Origin: a virus
Length of the DNA stretch: 23,032 nucleotides
Virus record (IMG/VR): IMGVR_UViG_3300024258_000119
Location: 1-23,032 of that record
Reading direction: 5' to 3' (one strand)
The translations under genes were made by a program, and so were the position numbers. The notes below the pieces were generated by a model. It was not told where the DNA came from. It worked only from the letters and a program-made list of their open reading frames with translations, and did no database searches. Shown here one piece after another: positions 8,496 through 19,529 of this stretch. The first letter of the stretch is position 1. Each line of letters begins with the position of its first letter.

Positions 8496-10352
8496 TTAAT
8501 TACTCGTTGTAGTGTAATCAATACCAGCAGTTGTACCACCAATTACCATTGTATCAATCTCTCCCACAATCTTAGCAGAGTTATATGATATAACAAGTAA
8601 TTCGTTTCTCATTGGACTAATGTCGTTTGATGCTGGCTTAACAATAATGTTTAATTTATCTGTTAATCCAACAACAGTGTCTAAACTAAATCCTTCTAAT
8701 ACTACCTTACCTGTTAAGATATCAATGTGTCCTACCGTATGATTTAACACTTTGTTATTATTATTAACAATTTGGATAATGTTCTTAGCTTCTTCCGTGT
8801 TGAAGTAATCTTTCAATACACATATTTCACCATTATAAGTGAACTGTGTGGAAGTCATGTAGTTAATTGATGCGTGTAATTGTCCTAACGCTTGGTTGAA
8901 GTTAAATTCATAGTACCGTTCAGATTGGAGTACAGGGGTAAATGTCTGATGCATTGATATTCTAGTGATGTTAGACACAATAGCTATATTAGTATTATCA
9001 ACATCCTGTAGTACATTAGAGTTTCTAAACACACCACCAAATGATTTCAAGTTTGCATTATTATATGCTGATAGCGTATCTCTAATTTGTTCAGCTAATG
9101 CTGCAGCTGTTGCATTAGATATGTTAGGGTTATACTTAAAGTATACTTCTAAATCAATGTATGTGTAATTAGGATCAACAAGAACTGGTGTAATTGATAC
9201 AACGTTCTTTGGTTTAAGATGCACCCCAATAATCTCAGCTTTTTGAGTGGGGGTTAATACCTCACCGTCGAGAGGTTTAATTGAAATATACACCTTACCA
9301 TAATCAGGTGGAATATTATCTTCTCCGCCCCACACAGTCATTGTATCAACATTACCATATGAATTTTGAATAATTCCTTTATAGTCATCTGGTGTTACAG
9401 CTCTGTTTTGAGCAACAAATCCTAATGGAGCATTAAACTTAATTGAATCTGTACTTTCTGCTTTTGCTCCACCAGTAGCACTAGTAGTAGTTGTAATAAT
9501 AACATCAGTATTGCCATTAATATTATCAGCTAGTGAAAACTGAGATGCTCCATTAATATCCGAAGCACCAACTGTTAAGTAGTTCACTTTAATAATATTA
9601 CCTGGAGTCAATCTCTTACCAATAACACCATCACCAAATTTAAGCTCATAAAACCCACTTCGTGACTCTTCTAAAAAATATGCAGTCGAATCTGAATCAA
9701 TATTAATAATATTTGGAATATTTGCAAATGTTTCATACTTAGAAGAGGTAGAACTTTCGTATACTTCAACGACTAGTGTGTCTGTGTTAACAAAGTTATC
9801 TTGTAATAAGTAATGCTCAAACCCAGTCTCGTCGTAAATATATGAACGATTATTTAACTGGCCTTGCAATAGTTTTACATTTTTAAATACATATTTACCA
9901 TCAGCATCTCTGGTGGTTGAATGTACAGAGTCTGATATTAAAGAATGGGTTACTGAATTAATAGTGGTAGTGAATATTGTACCACGATTCATACTTAATG
10001 GAAGATAGTTGCCATCATCATCTTGAACATTAATAGGATTAACCATTTCAACATCGACAAATGCCGTACTAGGTTTAGTTGATCTTGGAGTGTACCCTAA
10101 TAACTTAGCATGTGATACGACACTTTCTCTTAACTGTGCGGTATCTAAGAATGTTTCATTCAGGGCAAAATTAGCATTAACCGAGTTAATATGAGTAATG
10201 TATGACAACACATCAATCATAGTGTTCATTGCAGACCCTTCGAAGTTGTAGTCTTGGAAATCTCCTGGCTGTTCCTGCATGTATGATATCAGATTAGATT
10301 TAAGTGTATTAAAATCCAATTCAGACGCATTGATTCTTCTGTTATTACTCAT
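8496..10352 (-). CDS. 6: Baseplate wedge protein gp6 (P2 J-like)
   Basis: 618 aa, close to T4 gp6 (660 aa). Diagnostic segments are the N-terminal ELDFNTLKSNLISYMQEQP, then a conserved motif YNFEGSAMNTMIDVLSYITH (about residues 39-58), LNETFLDTAQLRESVVSHAK with LLGYTPRS, and the core NRAVTPDDYKGIIQNSYGNV (about 315-334) followed by GKVYISIKP. In T4, gp6 dimers link neighbouring wedges into the inner baseplate ring that holds the structure before contraction. Its start overlaps the gp25 stop by four bases (ATGA), so translation is probably coupled to gp25, its structural partner. Nothing appears broken. Confidence 0.93.
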   Translation of the reverse strand: MSNNRRINASELDFNTLKSNLISYMQEQPGDFQDYNFEGSAMNTMIDVLSYITHINSVNANFALNETFLDTAQLRESVVSHAKLLGYTPRSTKPSTAFVDVEMVNPINVQDDDGNYLPLSMNRGTIFTTTINSVTHSLISDSVHSTTRDADGKYVFKNVKLLQGQLNNRSYIYDETGFEHYLLQDNFVNTDTLVVEVYESSTSSKYETFANIPNIINIDSDSTAYFLEESRSGFYELKFGDGVIGKRLTPGNIIKVNYLTVGASDINGASQFSLADNINGNTDVIITTTTSATGGAKAESTDSIKFNAPLGFVAQNRAVTPDDYKGIIQNSYGNVDTMTVWGGEDNIPPDYGKVYISIKPLDGEVLTPTQKAEIIGVHLKPKNVVSITPVLVDPNYTYIDLEVYFKYNPNISNATAAALAEQIRDTLSAYNNANLKSFGGVFRNSNVLQDVDNTNIAIVSNITRISMHQTFTPVLQSERYYEFNFNQALGQLHASINYMTSTQFTYNGEICVLKDYFNTEEAKNIIQIVNNNNKVLNHTVGHIDILTGKVVLEGFSLDTVVGLTDKLNIIVKPASNDISPMRNELLVISYNSAKIVGEIDTMVIGGTTAGIDYTTTSN

Positions 10353-10747
10353 CGTAGTCTCTCTAGTGTTGTTGATACATCAACTGATGTATTTGTAGCT
10401 ATAATTTGTATTGTTACTGTTATCTGTACATCATTCCTATCAGGGAAAGTCTTTACATTCACATTCAATACTTTAACTCTTGGCTCATCATTTGCTAATG
10501 CATTTTTTACCTGATTAGATATTATAACTGCCGTAGCATAGTTAATATTCTCAAATAAATAAGACCTCAAATTTGCACCAAAGTATGGATTGAAAGGTCT
10601 CTCTCCATGGTTGGTTCTAAGTATATTTAATACACTTTGTTTAACTGAATTGATACCTTTCTTGGTAGAAATATCTCCAGTATTAGGATTTAGTTTATAG
10701 ATAAAATCTATATCTGAGTACTGATTTTGAAATGCTATTTGGGCCAT
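10349..10747 (-). CDS. 25: Baseplate wedge protein gp25
   Basis: 132 aa, the same length as T4 gp25. It carries the gp25 family hallmarks: an N-terminal YSDID, SVKQSVLNILRTNHGERPFN (residues 34-53), FGANLRSYLFE (56-66) and the invariant EPR (88-90) before a beta-rich C-terminus. gp25 is one of the most conserved contractile-injection components (P2 W; GPW/gp25 family). It sits at the sheath-baseplate junction and is thought to start sheath contraction with gp6 and gp53. A TATAAATA late promoter lies only 6 nt before the ATG and no ribosome binding site is visible, so a leaderless message is predicted in addition to read-through from gp5. Confidence 0.93.
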   Translation of the reverse strand: MAQIAFQNQYSDIDFIYKLNPNTGDISTKKGINSVKQSVLNILRTNHGERPFNPYFGANLRSYLFENINYATAVIISNQVKNALANDEPRVKVLNVNVKTFPDRNDVQITVTIQIIATNTSVDVSTTLERLR

Positions 10748-10761: not shown

Positions 10762-10767
10762 CAATTA

Positions 10768-11880
10768 TTATACGTTTGGTGCTGTAGATGTAGTTCCAGC
10801 ATGACCAGACACACCTGATGTGTGAGTGTGAGTATTAACTGATACGCCATGATCAGTATTAACATCCTTACCTACAGATAATTCACCATCAATCCTAACA
10901 TCACCCGTAATCTGAGTAGTAGGACAATCTAAGGTAGTCTTACCTAATACCTTAGCCGCAACATCTTGCAATACGGTTAAATCTACATGACCATCTACTA
11001 AACCAGTTAAGTTGCCTTCAATGTGTAAATCAATATTACCAGTATTCTCAGCAGGGTGATGTATACTAATACCATCTTCTTCTGTTACATGGTCATCAAG
11101 ATTGGCACCAACTCTCATAGCGATGTTACCACGTACCTCTCCATTGACATCACCATGCACTAAAAAGTCTAGGTTATTCCCTATGTTAGCTGTTACATTA
11201 CCAGCAACTGACAAATTAACATCCTCACTTACGATAATGTTTACATTGCCTTTAACTTCTATTGTATCATCACCTAAGATTAACTCATAGTTATCAGCAA
11301 CAACCCTTTCAATTTTAGAACCACCAGGTTGTACTTCGTAATAAGTACCTGAGTTATGTCTCTCTCTAATTCTTTGTGATCCAGGTGTATCGTCATACTC
11401 TTTAATGTGACCACTCTCTGATTCATATACATGGTTATATGGGTATTGTGGTGCGTATGCTGATCTAGGTTGGTATTCCCCCTGAACTTCATAGTCATTT
11501 GGATCAGGATTGCCTCTAGTTCTTAAATTGTTATCTTCTTCATTCTGGTTTCTAGGATATTGCCCTGAAGGATCTGTAAATCCAAATTCAGAAGGAACAT
11601 AATCACCTGATATGGTAGGAAGCGATCCCATTATCAAGAACGCTTGCAAGTTGGTATCGGTAAACGTACCAACAACCCACGATCCTTGTAATAAGAATGT
11701 AGAGTGTCCCACCCCAGATATACTAGGAGTTGTGGTACCGGCCATAACTAATGCCCAAGGCAAGTCTGCCGTGGGGATTACATTTCTATCCTTAGTGTGA
11801 ACATTTACCACACGTACCTTAACTCTACCTAATTTCTTTGGGTCTTGTATATCCTCAACCACACCGTAATATAATTCCAT
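10768..11880 (-). CDS. 5: Baseplate central spike gp5-like, without lysozyme domain
   Basis: 370 aa. Residues 1-90 form an OB-fold-like start (YYGVVEDIQDPKKLGRVKVR, PWALVMAG, GSWVVG) as in T4 gp5 and P2 V. Residues about 150-182 contain SGHIKEYDDTPGSQRI, typical of the gp5/VgrG spike neck. Residues about 205-340 are a VxGNxxxxV-style repeat expected to form a trimeric beta-helix needle. The tip (residues 349-360) contains HTH (351-353) and H360, resembling the iron-binding HxH tip of P2 gpV-type spikes. There is no lysozyme domain between OB and helix, unlike T4 gp5 (575 aa). It lies 3 nt after gp27 (its hub partner) with a GGA ribosome binding site 7 nt before the ATG. It pierces the outer membrane during contraction. 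Confidence 0.88.
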   Translation of the reverse strand: MELYYGVVEDIQDPKKLGRVKVRVVNVHTKDRNVIPTADLPWALVMAGTTTPSISGVGHSTFLLQGSWVVGTFTDTNLQAFLIMGSLPTISGDYVPSEFGFTDPSGQYPRNQNEEDNNLRTRGNPDPNDYEVQGEYQPRSAYAPQYPYNHVYESESGHIKEYDDTPGSQRIRERHNSGTYYEVQPGGSKIERVVADNYELILGDDTIEVKGNVNIIVSEDVNLSVAGNVTANIGNNLDFLVHGDVNGEVRGNIAMRVGANLDDHVTEEDGISIHHPAENTGNIDLHIEGNLTGLVDGHVDLTVLQDVAAKVLGKTTLDCPTTQITGDVRIDGELSVGKDVNTDHGVSVNTHTHTSGVSGHAGTTSTAPNV

Positions 11881-11883
11881 AAT

Positions 11884-13002
11884 CTATTCCTTGGCTAATT
11901 CAATAGTTTGAGTATAATCGTTGTCTTTTATTGTATGTATTATCTTTGATACTAGATACACACCTGAAAACTTTCCAGAACGACTTTGAGTTTGCTGCTG
12001 TTTATTTAGTAGCACTTTAACTTTATTGCCCACTCCAAGTCCAGGTATTGCTTGACATTCATAAGCAGTTACTCTAATAGAAAATATCATATTAAGCATC
12101 GATGTCATGTTGCATATATTTATTTGATCATTAGTATGCAATAAAGGTTTGGAATCATTGTCATACATATCCATACGTAACAGATTTAAAGAGCTGCCTG
12201 AATTAGACATCTCTCCAAACACTTCAGCATCAACAGATGATTTGGATATATCAGCATTTACAATAGTCTTTCCATACACACCATTAGCTACTTTATATGA
12301 TATATTATCATTATCAGAGTGTACCACTACAGACGCTGGTTGTCCTATATTACCTAATTGATTTTCCACAGTATCAGCGTTCTGAATAGATGGAGATATT
12401 GTTGCCATGGTTGACTGACCATTTATCTGAGTTAAACTAGTTAAGAAAGCATTCTTACTATCCACTAACCTCTCGAACATAAAAAAAGGAGAACTGTCTA
12501 TATCATACGCTTGACTTTTAACTTGTTTAATAGCTGTGTTAGGACTAATATTAGGAGCAATGTAATGGCCCTTAGTAATAGAGTTGGCTAAAACTTTTAG
12601 ATTTTTACTGAATGATCCATCAAAAATGCTTTTAATAATATCAGTACTTGTTCCTTTAAATGATTTAGATATTAATTGTGCAGTGTTTATAAATGTATCA
12701 ATTGATTTTAAATTAATAACATACGTCTTCTTAGTTAGATTTGTAGTTACATCGATAGCATTAACACCATCTAAATGGAAGCTGTGTTTTACTGTGTGGT
12801 CGAAGTATTCAAACTCTAACAGAATCAGATTGCCTTTAGTGATAGCATTATCCAACATACCAACACCATCAACAATTTCAATCTTGCCTTCAAGGTTGCC
12901 GAATATATTTTCAGTAATATTAAGGTTTAATACTGTATCAGATATATCGATTGATCGATTGTCCTCATATACAATTGATACAGAGAATTTGCTTAGCTTC
13001 AT
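11884..13002 (-). CDS. 27: Baseplate hub protein gp27-like (P2 D-like)
   Basis: 372 aa, close to T4 gp27 (391 aa). The N-terminus (SKFSVSIVYEDNRSIDISDT, NLNITENIFGNLEGKIEIVD) has the two-beta-domain opening typical of contractile-tail hub proteins, and the C-terminus (KFSGVYLVSKIIHTIKDNDY) matches the usual hub ending in which the protein returns to the tube-like domain. In T4 a gp27 trimer forms the cup joining tail tube to the gp5 spike. Direct linkage to gp5 (3 nt apart) and a 4-nt overlap with the gp53 stop fit this role. Similarity to T4 gp27 is weak by eye, so the assignment rests on fold-like motifs, size and gene order. Confidence 0.75.
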   Translation of the reverse strand: MKLSKFSVSIVYEDNRSIDISDTVLNLNITENIFGNLEGKIEIVDGVGMLDNAITKGNLILLEFEYFDHTVKHSFHLDGVNAIDVTTNLTKKTYVINLKSIDTFINTAQLISKSFKGTSTDIIKSIFDGSFSKNLKVLANSITKGHYIAPNISPNTAIKQVKSQAYDIDSSPFFMFERLVDSKNAFLTSLTQINGQSTMATISPSIQNADTVENQLGNIGQPASVVVHSDNDNISYKVANGVYGKTIVNADISKSSVDAEVFGEMSNSGSSLNLLRMDMYDNDSKPLLHTNDQINICNMTSMLNMIFSIRVTAYECQAIPGLGVGNKVKVLLNKQQQTQSRSGKFSGVYLVSKIIHTIKDNDYTQTIELAKE

Positions 13003-13724
13003 GAGTCCATTTCTTGCTTAAATGCAGCAACGAATTCATCAATCTTTTCAGGTCTAATAGCTCTAACGTATCTATTAGCATCATTATTATAACTTTCGTG
13101 TTCTAAGTTGGTCACTTTATGAGTGCCTGCTGTTCTTGGTGCTGTAATATCCCCAGTAGAATCGTCTACATGATAGGCTGGTGCATATGCTCTACTAACA
13201 ATCTCTGTAGCCGTAACTGTGTCAGAAGATTCTAAACCAATCAAGTCTTCACCAGCAGTTCTAAATGTGCCTGATATATGTTTAACCGTGATATACTTGT
13301 CGTTAGTGTGGATTGCAAGCACCTGACCAATAGCTCCTGACAGCACCCCTTGTATATACTCACCTTGAATAAACTTACCTAACAGATCGTCTGTACACAT
13401 ACACGCTAAGGCTGCAAAGTCTGCATACTTGTATACTGAATAATCTAATAGCTGAGCTGAGTTCTTGGGCCAATCATTCCAAATGTTTTTAATATTAGGA
13501 TTAATAACCATAAGCGTCCAATAGTGACTAGGTGTTCCATACAACCTCTGACTCATCTGCTCAATGCGCTCTCCATCTTGGACTTGAACAAAGTTGTAAA
13601 ACGCATGATTGTTAATTAAAGAGTCACTAGCTGCAGCAAATCTGGTAAGGTCTATTATGTCATCAAATACACCATCCCCATTTAAATCATAAGAAATTGT
13701 TTTAAAGTTCGAAAAGTATCCCAT
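12999..13724 (-). CDS. 53: Baseplate wedge protein gp53
   Basis: 241 aa against 196 in T4. The core QVQDGERIEQMSQRLYGTPS (residues 47-66) with HYWTLMVIN is the LysM-like gp53 signature (T4: PEELANAIYGNPQLYWVLLMCN), and the C-terminus EKIDEFVAAFKQEMDS resembles the T4 end. In T4, gp53 clamps the gp6-gp7-gp25 wedge cores into a closed ring. Two unusual parts are seen. Residues 12-22 (YDLNGDGVFDD) look like a dockerin-type calcium loop. Residues about 117-175 (GEYIQGVLSGAIGQV ... GTFRTAGEDLIGLESSD) are a glycine-rich beta module absent from T4 gp53, which explains the extra length. It starts two bases after the gp48 stop and overlaps gp27 by four. Confidence 0.87.
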   Translation of the reverse strand: MGYFSNFKTISYDLNGDGVFDDIIDLTRFAAASDSLINNHAFYNFVQVQDGERIEQMSQRLYGTPSHYWTLMVINPNIKNIWNDWPKNSAQLLDYSVYKYADFAALACMCTDDLLGKFIQGEYIQGVLSGAIGQVLAIHTNDKYITVKHISGTFRTAGEDLIGLESSDTVTATEIVSRAYAPAYHVDDSTGDITAPRTAGTHKVTNLEHESYNNDANRYVRAIRPEKIDEFVAAFKQEMDS

Positions 13725-14954: not shown

Positions 14955-15446
14955 ATGAGAAAAACATATAGCGGCAAATGGAAACCAAAGTACCCAGAAA
15001 AGTATAATGGGGATCATACTAAGATAACATATAGATCGCTATGGGAACGCAATACATTTAGATGGATAGAAAAGCAATCATGGGTTAGATGGTGGAATTC
15101 TGAAGAGACCATTATACCATACATTTGTGCAACAGACAAGCGTCCCCACAGATATTTTATTGACCTTACTATTAAGAGAATGGATGGAAAGGTTATATTA
15201 GTCGAGATTAAGCCACTTGATCAAACAAAAGCTCCTAAAAGAAAGAACCTTAATGAAGCATTGACTTATATGAAGAACACTTCGAAGTGGAAGTATGCTA
15301 AAAGGTATTGTGATGATAGGGGATGGAAGTTTGAGATATGGACTGAGAAGACACTAGAGAGTTTTGGAGTTCCTGGTATGAAAAGGGTAAAGAAGGTTCC
15401 ATGGAAACCCCTAAAGAAAAAGATCAAAAAGAAGATCAAAAAGTAA
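14955..15446 (+). CDS. 4: Head completion nuclease gp4 (T4 gp4/gp50)
   Basis: 163 aa; T4 gp4 is about 150. The N-terminus (KYPEKYNGDHTKITYRSLWE) closely matches T4 (KNPQKYKGDLNKIIYRSSWE). Likely PD-(D/E)XK nuclease residues are E31 (SLWER), D70 (RYFIDL) and E84-x-K86 (LVEIKP), followed by the conserved WKYAKRYCDDRGWKFEIWTE. In T4, gp4 acts with gp2 after DNA packaging to finish heads so that tails can join. A lysine-rich tail (KKVPWKPLKKKIKKKIKK, residues 146-163) extends the C-terminus and may bind DNA. The start has no ribosome binding site but lies 5 nt from a late promoter; an in-frame stop just upstream excludes a longer form. Confidence 0.92.
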   Translation: MRKTYSGKWKPKYPEKYNGDHTKITYRSLWERNTFRWIEKQSWVRWWNSEETIIPYICATDKRPHRYFIDLTIKRMDGKVILVEIKPLDQTKAPKRKNLNEALTYMKNTSKWKYAKRYCDDRGWKFEIWTEKTLESFGVPGMKRVKKVPWKPLKKKIKKKIKK

Positions 15447-17486: not shown

Positions 17487-17656
17487 CTCTTTCGCACGAA
17501 TCATTAGAGGCCTACTTTAGGTTAAACTTTTCATTGATGGAAGAGCACAAATATAGTTTAGTTGAGTTAGATAACATGATCCCTTGGGAACGTGAAATCT
17601 ATACCAGCTTGCTCATAAAACAGATCAATGAGGATATAGAGAATGCCAACACATAA
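17480..17656 (+). CDS. -1 frame extension of gp26 (chaperone fusion; possible gp51 equivalent)
   Basis: The frame one base back from gp26 is open from the T run to a TAA at 17654-17656 and encodes 58 residues beginning YLALSHESLEAYFRLNFSLM and continuing EEHKYSLVELDNMIPWEREI. The composition is that of a real protein (charged helix, tryptophan, hydrophobic pattern). I recall a similar NFSLM...YSL.EL.NM.PWERE.Y segment after gp26 in related phages. An internal ATG at 17537 would give only 39 residues, has no ribosome binding site and would lose the N-terminal half of the motif, so production as a gp26 fusion (292 aa) is more likely. It overlaps the tape measure start by 14 nt. In lambda and P2, such frameshift products are tail-assembly chaperones for the tape measure protein. 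Confidence 0.6.
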   Translation, partial: YLALSHESLEAYFRLNFSLMEEHKYSLVELDNMIPWEREIYTSLLIKQINEDIENANT

Positions 17657-19529
17657 AGATGATAAAGTTGTAGCGAGAGCTCAAGCAAATAAAATTCAGA
17701 GGGATGCAAAGTCAGGATTCAATCTGCTAACTAAAGCTATTGGTGAATTAAACAAGAACGTAGAAAGTTTAAGAAACATTGAGCTGTTATCGGTAGCACA
17801 TGACGTAAAAGTTGGTGATAATGACAAAAAGTTCTATTCAGGAGTTGATAGGACTAACCAAGAATCTAAGGTCAACGAAGCTCACATTGTTGAATCTACA
17901 GCTAGACAAGAGGCCGGACTTCGTCAAATAGCAAAGCGGATTGTATTATTGCATGGGTTTTTAGCTAAAGATTCATCTGAAGAAACTAAGTTCAGATTAA
18001 AAGTAGCATCCGAAGAACACACTCAATCATTGCGCAAGCATAGATCGATTGGAATGTCTCAGTTTGAGTTTATGAGAGATCGTAAAATCCAGAGTATATC
18101 TGGATTAGAAGGACAAGAAAGATTTACTCAAAACGATAAAGGTGAGTGGAAAGGTACTGGTAAGAACTACACAGCTGAAGAAGCAAAAGCTGAAAGGCTG
18201 GCTTGGGATACAATGATATCCAAGAAGAAACACTCCATGAACAAGGCTCATGCTGAGGGTGCTGTTAATAGTAAGTCTAAAAGATATCGTGCTGCACAGA
18301 TTACTGGTGATGTTACAAGTGAGGAAGCCCTTAAGGCGCAGCGGACTATCATTAAAGAAAAACGAGCCCATCTGATAGCAGAAGGAGCATCTGCTCAAAA
18401 GATTAAGGCAGAGTCTCGAAAACTTCTAAACTCTTTCGTTGCAGCTAATGATGACGTTAATAAAATGTATAATTATGGTACAACTGCTATATTGGATTCG
18501 AGAGACCATGGTGGTGATAATGAAAAAAAGGCTGATCCTGAATTAGTTAAGAAGACTAATGATATATTAAAGGTCAACTCAGACATGCTGGATGTGCTAA
18601 AAGGAAATGCTTTAGCAGAGAAAGAAATAAATAGAGAAAAACGTAAGAATATTCTAAAAGGTAAGTCGACTAGATTTAGCAAACCTCGTATCATTTCACC
18701 TAGTGCTGTGGGTACAGGTATTGGATTATTGGGGGGAATAGCAACCACAGGTACTACGTTAGCCACTACTGCATTAGCCAGCAAGATGGTAAAAGATCGT
18801 ATTGCAAAGAAGGCGGCAAAGAAGGTGGCCGCAAAAGCAGCTGCTGCTTTAGCTGCTAAGAAAGTTGCTGAGAAACTAGCCATTAAGAAAGCTAAAGAGG
18901 TTGCTGCTAAGAAAGTTATCCAAGTAGCTACTAAAGCAGTAGCGGTCTCTGCTGTTAAGAAGGTAGCAACTAAGAAAGTTGTCGAAAAGGTTGGACTATC
19001 AACTGTCATGGCCCTTGCTAAGAAAGTAGCGGCTAAACTTGGTTGGAGTACAATTGCTAAACATCTTGCAACTAAACTTCCTGCATTAGCATTAGGTGCT
19101 GCAGCAGGCCCTATTGGTATTGCAATTGCTATTGCTGGAGCAATATGGATGGCATATGACATCTACGAAGTACTTCAAGAGCTGGACAAAGCCACCGATG
19201 TTGGTAAAGGGTTGGATCATCCTCTACTCAAGCCAATACCAGAACAAGCTAATAAGCAAGTGATGACCAAAAGAGGCCTGCGTACAGTTAAAGTTACCAA
19301 TGCTGATGCACTAGATTCTGCTGAGAAACAAAAGCAAGCAGCTATACAGCCTAGCATAGATGGTGCTAGTAAAGCCAAATCTACTGTAGTATCTAATTCA
19401 GGTAACACATCGAACTCAGGCAATTCCACAGTCATTAATCAGTATGGGTCATTTGATCCAGCTAGGTTAAATACTAGCGACTTGACTACTAGAGTTCCTG
19501 TAGAAGGATTTATAACTCCAGGAATTTAA
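17643..19529 (+). CDS. Candidate tail tape measure protein (gp29 role)
   Basis: 628 aa, against 590 for T4 gp29. Residues 1-350 are mostly charged alpha-helix with coiled-coil character (KIQRDAKSGFNLLTKAIGEL; EKEINREKRKNILKGK). Residues about 375-475 are an Ala/Lys-rich stretch (KKAAKKVAAKAAAALAAKKV and more), followed by a hydrophobic, membrane-like segment (LALGAAAGPIGIAIAIAGAI, about residues 480-505). The C-terminus is Ser/Asn/Thr-rich and ends with a PVEGFITPGI tail. Long helix plus one hydrophobic segment is typical of tape measure proteins, and it directly follows the gp26/-1 frame unit. At about 1.5 angstrom per residue it would set a tail near 94 nm. A GAGG site lies about 8 nt upstream of the ATG. 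No sequence similarity to T4 gp29 is apparent by eye. Confidence 0.6.
   Translation: MPTHKDDKVVARAQANKIQRDAKSGFNLLTKAIGELNKNVESLRNIELLSVAHDVKVGDNDKKFYSGVDRTNQESKVNEAHIVESTARQEAGLRQIAKRIVLLHGFLAKDSSEETKFRLKVASEEHTQSLRKHRSIGMSQFEFMRDRKIQSISGLEGQERFTQNDKGEWKGTGKNYTAEEAKAERLAWDTMISKKKHSMNKAHAEGAVNSKSKRYRAAQITGDVTSEEALKAQRTIIKEKRAHLIAEGASAQKIKAESRKLLNSFVAANDDVNKMYNYGTTAILDSRDHGGDNEKKADPELVKKTNDILKVNSDMLDVLKGNALAEKEINREKRKNILKGKSTRFSKPRIISPSAVGTGIGLLGGIATTGTTLATTALASKMVKDRIAKKAAKKVAAKAAAALAAKKVAEKLAIKKAKEVAAKKVIQVATKAVAVSAVKKVATKKVVEKVGLSTVMALAKKVAAKLGWSTIAKHLATKLPALALGAAAGPIGIAIAIAGAIWMAYDIYEVLQELDKATDVGKGLDHPLLKPIPEQANKQVMTKRGLRTVKVTNADALDSAEKQKQAAIQPSIDGASKAKSTVVSNSGNTSNSGNSTVINQYGSFDPARLNTSDLTTRVPVEGFITPGI

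Follow-up and report, generated by a model that had tools for sequence, protein, structure and literature searches.

Iron at the tips of the P2 gpV, phi92 and R2 pyocin spikes is described as bound by six histidines contributed by three chains; the apexes of P2 and phi92 are said to resemble PAAR cones, the two kinds of tip serving the same function in different groups of phages (PMC10715212). In phage T4 the tip is formed by gp5.4, presented in PMC4576200 as a PAAR protein which locks the last strands, and a standalone PAAR is reported for most jumbo myophages (PMC7824862). The central spike gp27 of Agrobacterium phage Milano has a C-terminal HVH, as here an HxH, with cryo-EM density read as likely Fe, and its spike complex is likened by its authors to those of the R-type pyocin and T4 (PMC10811340). 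That HxH and PAAR tips are equivalent across phage groups is thus already known; no report of both within the T4-type gp5 was found in the open-licence literature.

The DNA analyzed here (the window) is the entire IMG/VR record IMGVR_UViG_3300024258_000119, a partial genome of 23,032 bases from a T4-like phage known through environmental DNA, carrying a T4-type virion module. It probably encodes a T4-type gp5 spike with a self-formed, putatively metal-binding HxH tip of the P2/Mu kind in place of a PAAR protein. Pfam and PHROGs identify on the minus strand genes for gp48-like, gp53, a 372-aa tail protein, gp5, gp25, gp6, a wedge protein and gp8-like. The T4-type baseplate neighborhood (gp48, gp53, hub, gp25, gp6) is therefore present, the hub protein being assigned by PHROG and position only and termed gp27-like by position alone, as the phiM12 record also remarks. 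The genes around the spike are as follows:

12999..13724, minus strand: gp53 baseplate wedge (Pfam Phage_gp53 7.2e-6; phrog_232 2.3e-28)
11884..13002, minus strand: 372-aa tail protein in the hub (gp27-like) position, immediately upstream of gp5 (phrog_350 2.4e-30)
10768..11880, minus strand: gp5 central spike, 370 aa, without lysozyme domain (Pfam Gp5_OB 4e-21; phrog_430 2e-86)
10349..10747, minus strand: gp25 baseplate wedge (Pfam GPW_gp25 9.2e-16)
8496..10352, minus strand: gp6 baseplate wedge (Pfam Gp6-like_1st 2.6e-17)

The gp6 protein is closest, at 35-38%, to those of the pelagiphages HTVC008M and Mosig and the Methylophilales phages Melnitz, with Pelagibacter phage HTVC008M (37.5%) being its best named relative. 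Elsewhere in the window, an ORF in the place of gp4 (head completion; 14955-15446) matches the N-terminal domain of a TnsA-like endonuclease in Pfam (4e-16). A 628-aa ORF (17643-19529) adjoining gp26 possesses hydrophobic stretches and has no match in Pfam or PHROGs; by position it is possibly the tape measure protein.

An earlier note on this DNA, made from the letters alone, had given the coordinates, strand and length of gp5 correctly (the gene starts with ATG, its stop ends at 10768 and it encodes 370 aa), and had proposed an OB domain leading through a neck into a beta-helix with the T4 lysozyme domain omitted, an order which Pfam and alignment to the T4 gp5 chain bear out, with the beta-helix as a probable element. 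The N-terminal OB domain (PF06714) spans residues 30-130 with 76.2 bits against a cut-off of 25, while Gp5_trimer_C (PF22178) is found at residues 198-269 with an E-value of 5.6e-4, below the Pfam cut-off. Against T4-type gp5 chains the protein gives E-values of 3.7e-41 to 1.4e-38 (T4 gp5 1.3e-38), its residues 4-123 aligning with T4 residues 11-136 and residues 125-252 with T4 367-493. Residues 137-366 of T4, the lysozyme region of about 230 residues, have no counterpart, the gap falling between residues 123 and 125, and Pfam detects no lysozyme domain (PF00959) in the protein. C-terminal fragments of T4 gp5 match its putative beta-helix region at about 3e-5, where the monomer model has no regular structure. 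This AlphaFold model (33 sequences, mean pLDDT 68) has as its best Foldseek match T4 gp5 (1pdl, E-value 1.1e-12, TM 0.40 at most); its pLDDT falls below 50 at residues 349-356 and 358-370, making it useless for the geometry of the tip histidines.

For comparison, 225 loci with gp5 were collected (some contigs counted twice), of which 183 had a complete gp5 with gp25 or gp6 downstream; the other 42 had a cut gp5 or lacked gp25/gp6 downstream. L099 and L100 gave no T4-type gp5. The 183 loci were grouped by tip similarity into 86 clusters. Their representatives, drawn from viral contigs with three gp5 queries and supplemented by hand-chosen named records, are a sample of kin and not of all T4-type phages. 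Phage_lysozyme (PF00959) matched just two of the 86, one being RB32 and the other presumably Aeh1. The absence of the lysozyme thus holds, but its presentation in the earlier note as a special feature was overstated, as the other 84 representatives have no such match. The database label 'gp5, tail lysozyme' is accordingly misleading on this branch. The record of Vibrio phage KVP40 is annotated with a T4-type gp5 that likewise lacks the lysozyme domain, but unlike the spike of the window this gp5 has a blunt end and a PAAR gene close downstream, so that losing the lysozyme and losing PAAR are two distinct questions. A tie between the HxH tip and the missing lysozyme was also rejected, as the blunt, PAAR-bearing gp5 of both KVP40 and locus L006 is without lysozyme.

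How peptidoglycan is opened is a question beside that of the tip and does not count against it. A virion peptidoglycan hydrolase encoded elsewhere could have taken over the work of the lysozyme, a possibility that we hold at somewhat less than even. Relatives have CHAP (4 of 86), Peptidase_M15 (two models with 2 matches each) or GH19 (1) attached to their gp5, and lysozyme frames of 161 aa and 163 aa occur in the contigs of L036 (HQH group) and L205 (HxH) respectively, as does a 201-aa M15 frame in that of L215 (HxH). From their size, however, these last three look like lysis enzymes. Acidic lysozyme activity was also once reported for T4 gp25, as cited in PMC5259590, and the gp25 of the window belongs to that family, but no other hydrolase-type Pfam match was found in the 21 window ORFs scanned, and PF00959, PF08291, PF05257 and PF01464 are absent from the contigs of L001, L002, L006 and L008. 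The 628-aa ORF was considered as a hydrolase, which is unsupported (no Pfam match at E-values up to 1); its counterparts by position in Mosig and C48C1 are not similar to it by BLASTP (best E-values 0.33 and 0.22). A hydrolase is perhaps not needed, since PMC11948020 describes a contractile phage with no enzymatic domains for penetration. Long C-terminal extensions of gp5 that are hydrolase-like by eye were seen in L073, L069 (M15-like), L077, L189, L016 (HEIGGH), L017 and L021; these come after the beta-helix, while the T4 lysozyme sits inside gp5.

The C-terminal sequence of gp5 reads ...NTHTHTSGVSGHAGTTSTAPNV and holds the proposed apex:

10822..10830, minus strand: codons of H351-T352-H353, the HxH tip motif (both histidines invariant in 31/31 tips)

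The earlier note had placed H360 together with the HTH at residues 351-353 in the tip; all of these residues are present, as is H344, but H360 is not conserved among the 31 tips, and its place in a conserved site is not supported. Within the last 60 residues, HxH was found in 32 of the 86 representatives, whereas 1000 shuffles gave 2.9 on average and 10 at most; L081, counted in the 32, has its HxH in a C-terminal extension and not at a tip, and was set aside. In the 31 HxH tips, one per cluster, only the two columns corresponding to H351 and H353 are invariant, with flanks that vary widely.

A profile of these 31 tips was compared with 177,635 PDB sequences. Its top seven matches are all phage central spikes, these being gp021 (9ndy), Mu gp45 (three entries), gp43 (8eon), gp44 (9b45) and gp41 (4ru3), with E-values of 0.009-0.13, no single match being significant (best 0.009). 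In the four alignments printed, the gp5-type HxH is matched by that of Mu gp45 and by those of three further solved spikes. The eighth match is an unrelated protein (0.51), followed by phi92 gp138 (0.55-0.82). The corresponding profile of 28 blunt tips matches C-terminal fragments of T4 gp5 (7e-22) and, weakly, VgrG. Judged by these profiles, HxH and blunt tips would fall into two known structural classes, weakly so for HxH. Neither the gp5 tip nor four further ends of HxH or HQH type matched an apex family in Pfam. The last 100 residues of gp5 alone gave six phage records at E-values of 0.01-0.02, two of the alignments reaching the HxH and four, to Vibrio phages, covering the shaft; homology of the tip to P2-like Vibrio phage X29 was rejected, as that alignment spans residues 281-336, in the shaft. 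Among viral contigs the same 100 residues found the same virus only (5 loci, contigs L001-L005), by a method that finds close relatives only.

As the earlier note had observed, there is no PAAR gene beside gp5: gp25 starts 20 nt past the gp5 stop, with no cap gene between the two. The domain PF05488 also has no match anywhere else in the 23-kb record. Across relatives, separate PAAR genes near gp5 were sought with a model based on six annotated phage PAAR proteins, with one further round of building on the matches that it gave. They were found in none of the 31 HxH clusters and in 24 of the 28 blunt ones, a difference with a Fisher p of 9.5e-13 uncorrected for kinship (2.9e-10 to 2.8e-16 over five clustering thresholds). 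The spacing of gp5 and gp25/gp6 follows the same division, a gap of 40 nt or less being present in 28/31 HxH clusters versus 3/28 blunt clusters. Of the remainder, clusters with a PAAR-like fused end have no separate PAAR gene (0/7), those with other ends have one in 6/19 cases, and L081 with its extended C-terminus has one. When kinship was taken into account on a quick gp5 tree with long branches that meet, HxH versus blunt gave 4 independent pairs on starred branches (0 the same way, 2.4 opposite, 1.6 without difference; median p 0.5) and HxH versus all others 6 pairs (0, 1.5 and 4.5 respectively; median p 1), so that this test had too few pairs for power, with no pair going against the association.

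The fused PAAR class was defined by motif, and the PAAR model has no match to its ends. Such an in-frame PAAR-like end (..GAAR..GS..V.IG) with no separate PAAR gene was seen in L078-L080, L170, L179, L180, L181, L193 and L055. Counted under other ends are L014, with an N-terminal part equal to that of L013 and a C-terminus that reads differently, and L027-L038, in which HQH stands some 126 residues short of the C-terminus. The latter have a GHQH motif followed by a long extension, with gp25 directly after and no PAAR, and perhaps possess an HxH tip with an extra domain.

Whole records were also searched for PF05488. The first set, 50 records taken from 80 loci, had it in 23. A set of 46 IMG/VR records comprised 42 with an HxH-tipped gp5, three of the HQH group and one with a cut gp5; the domain was absent from all 42 HxH records, of which the longest (142 kb) is the sole one near genome size, as well as from the three HQH-group records (one of 148 kb) and the cut-gp5 record. 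Named phage records with a blunt gp5 have it in 11 of 12 cases, ten over the cut-off and ACG-2014d weakly (2.7e-4), the exception being C48C1, a complete genome. With regard to named records with other gp5 ends, S-CAM1 has PAAR and Melnitz-3 a weak match, and none was found in phiM12, phiM9, VP-1, PhiW-14 and Phi_10. HxH therefore goes with no PAAR, but the converse does not hold: four blunt clusters, C48C1 among them, have no PAAR gene, and absence of PAAR is thus no proof of a self-formed tip. In L010-L012, L013 and L054, whose contigs are 4-28 kb long and contain no PAAR, a blunt gp5 is followed directly by gp25.

These distributions bear on whether a separate PAAR protein from outside the 23-kb record caps the spike, with the HxH being incidental or lying beneath the cap. 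The record is a fragment, and PAAR caps need not adjoin gp5, being about 7 kb away in HTVC008M and Mosig and about 17 kb away in ACP17 (blunt). However, in HTVC008M and Mosig the PAAR gene directly precedes gp25, where here gp5 runs straight into it; the tip is without the blunt IxLN end seen on PAAR-bearing spikes, and its PDB matches are of another class; and the 42 HxH-tipped records without PAAR, even with only one near genome size, tell against a distant cap, which we regard as improbable. It is equally hard to credit a generic histidine-containing beta-helix end with no metal, its tip open or closed by hydrophobic packing, for although an HxH in the last 60 residues of this one protein is not striking (shuffle P = 0.083), the two histidines alone are invariant amid highly variable flanks, HxH is concentrated C-terminally in the 86 proteins (36 in the last 60 residues versus 18 elsewhere) and the motif excludes PAAR across clusters.

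The preferred reading, a self-formed HxH tip in place of PAAR, also draws on the closest relative, L006 (IMGVR_UViG_3300009008_000058), whose gp5 is 76% identical over residues 3-277. The L006 gp5 has an extra shaft insert of about 155 residues and a blunt end, and a PAAR gene lies directly after it (L006:7512-7814). By blastn, past a short matching block, similarity ends at 10969 and resumes at 10762 (12064 and 12271 on the reverse complement), delimiting the following:

10763..10968, minus strand: exchanged stretch, the last ~67 gp5 codons (beta-helix end, HxH tip and stop) plus a 5 nt spacer

At this place L006 has the blunt gp5 end and the PAAR gene, and, as aligned, the two gp5 proteins differ by a tip exchange, apart from the shaft insert. 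Similar pairs are L018 (HxH) and L039 (blunt, PAAR), which are 73% identical over about 300 residues, and L192 and L193, with an HxH tip and a PAAR-like fused end respectively, which share 77% identity over 243 residues. The surrounding baseplate genes are mosaic with respect to L006 (window 11884-13724), with 76% identity for the gp5 body, 34% for the hub-position protein and 45% for gp53. The shaft insert, an extra domain, occurs in L006 (L006:5974-7515; residues ~281-436, blunt) and, in a similar form at the same place, in L134 (L134:3147-4667; HxH), and is absent here; shaft insert and tip type seem to assort separately.

The quick tree, made from the N-terminal part of gp5, requires 10 changes of the HxH label, of which starred branches force at least 6, and the smallest starred set holding this gp5 has HxH in 23 of its 30 rows. 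The tip of this gp5 might come from the HxH-rich sister clade, or L006 may have gained PAAR. As a tentative and broader proposal, the tip in the T4 superfamily may be an exchangeable cassette in which the HxH apex, the blunt end with PAAR and the fused PAAR-like end swap repeatedly at one and the same position at the gp5 end, also between close relatives, HxH perhaps having originally been recombined from P2/Mu-type phages.

In comparison with T4 gp5 and gp5.4, the spike of the window shares the OB domain, the neck, a probable VxGN beta-helix and similar surrounding baseplate genes, and differs in having no lysozyme domain, no PAAR gene in the 23-kb record and an HxH end versus the blunt IxLN-type end of T4. 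With the P2 gpV, Mu gp45, phi92 gp138 and R2 pyocin spikes it shares a C-terminal HxH followed by a short Gly/Thr-rich tail; unlike in those, the tip is carried on a T4-type OB/neck/beta-helix within a T4-type baseplate, the similarity is weak and the metal is suggested by analogy. The earlier suggestion that a P2-style tip replaces the PAAR cap is supported, with H360 removed from the site, by the invariant HxH, the weak PDB profile matches, the exclusion of PAAR and the exchange with L006.

The sequences themselves show the domain order and the loss of the lysozyme; they also show that the HxH is invariant, that PAAR is absent from this and other HxH loci and that the exchange with a PAAR-bearing relative is local. 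By analogy with solved spikes, we infer a trimer, a metal, sharpness and piercing. The beta-helix of the gp5 trimer would end in its own apex, where the three chains would close at H351 and H353, their six histidines surrounding a single metal ion, which by comparison with P2 gpV is probably iron. An apex closed in this manner would make a PAAR cap unnecessary, and once the sheath contracts the pointed spike would be driven through the outer membrane in the manner of T4 gp5-gp5.4, without a gp5-borne lysozyme.

Both kinds of tip are thus found on nearly the same gp5 body within one protein family, and are mutually exclusive in the sample analyzed. Pairs such as the window and L006, or L018 and L039, are natural matched pairs for what a separate cap adds, be it control of assembly, cargo or fit to the host envelope.
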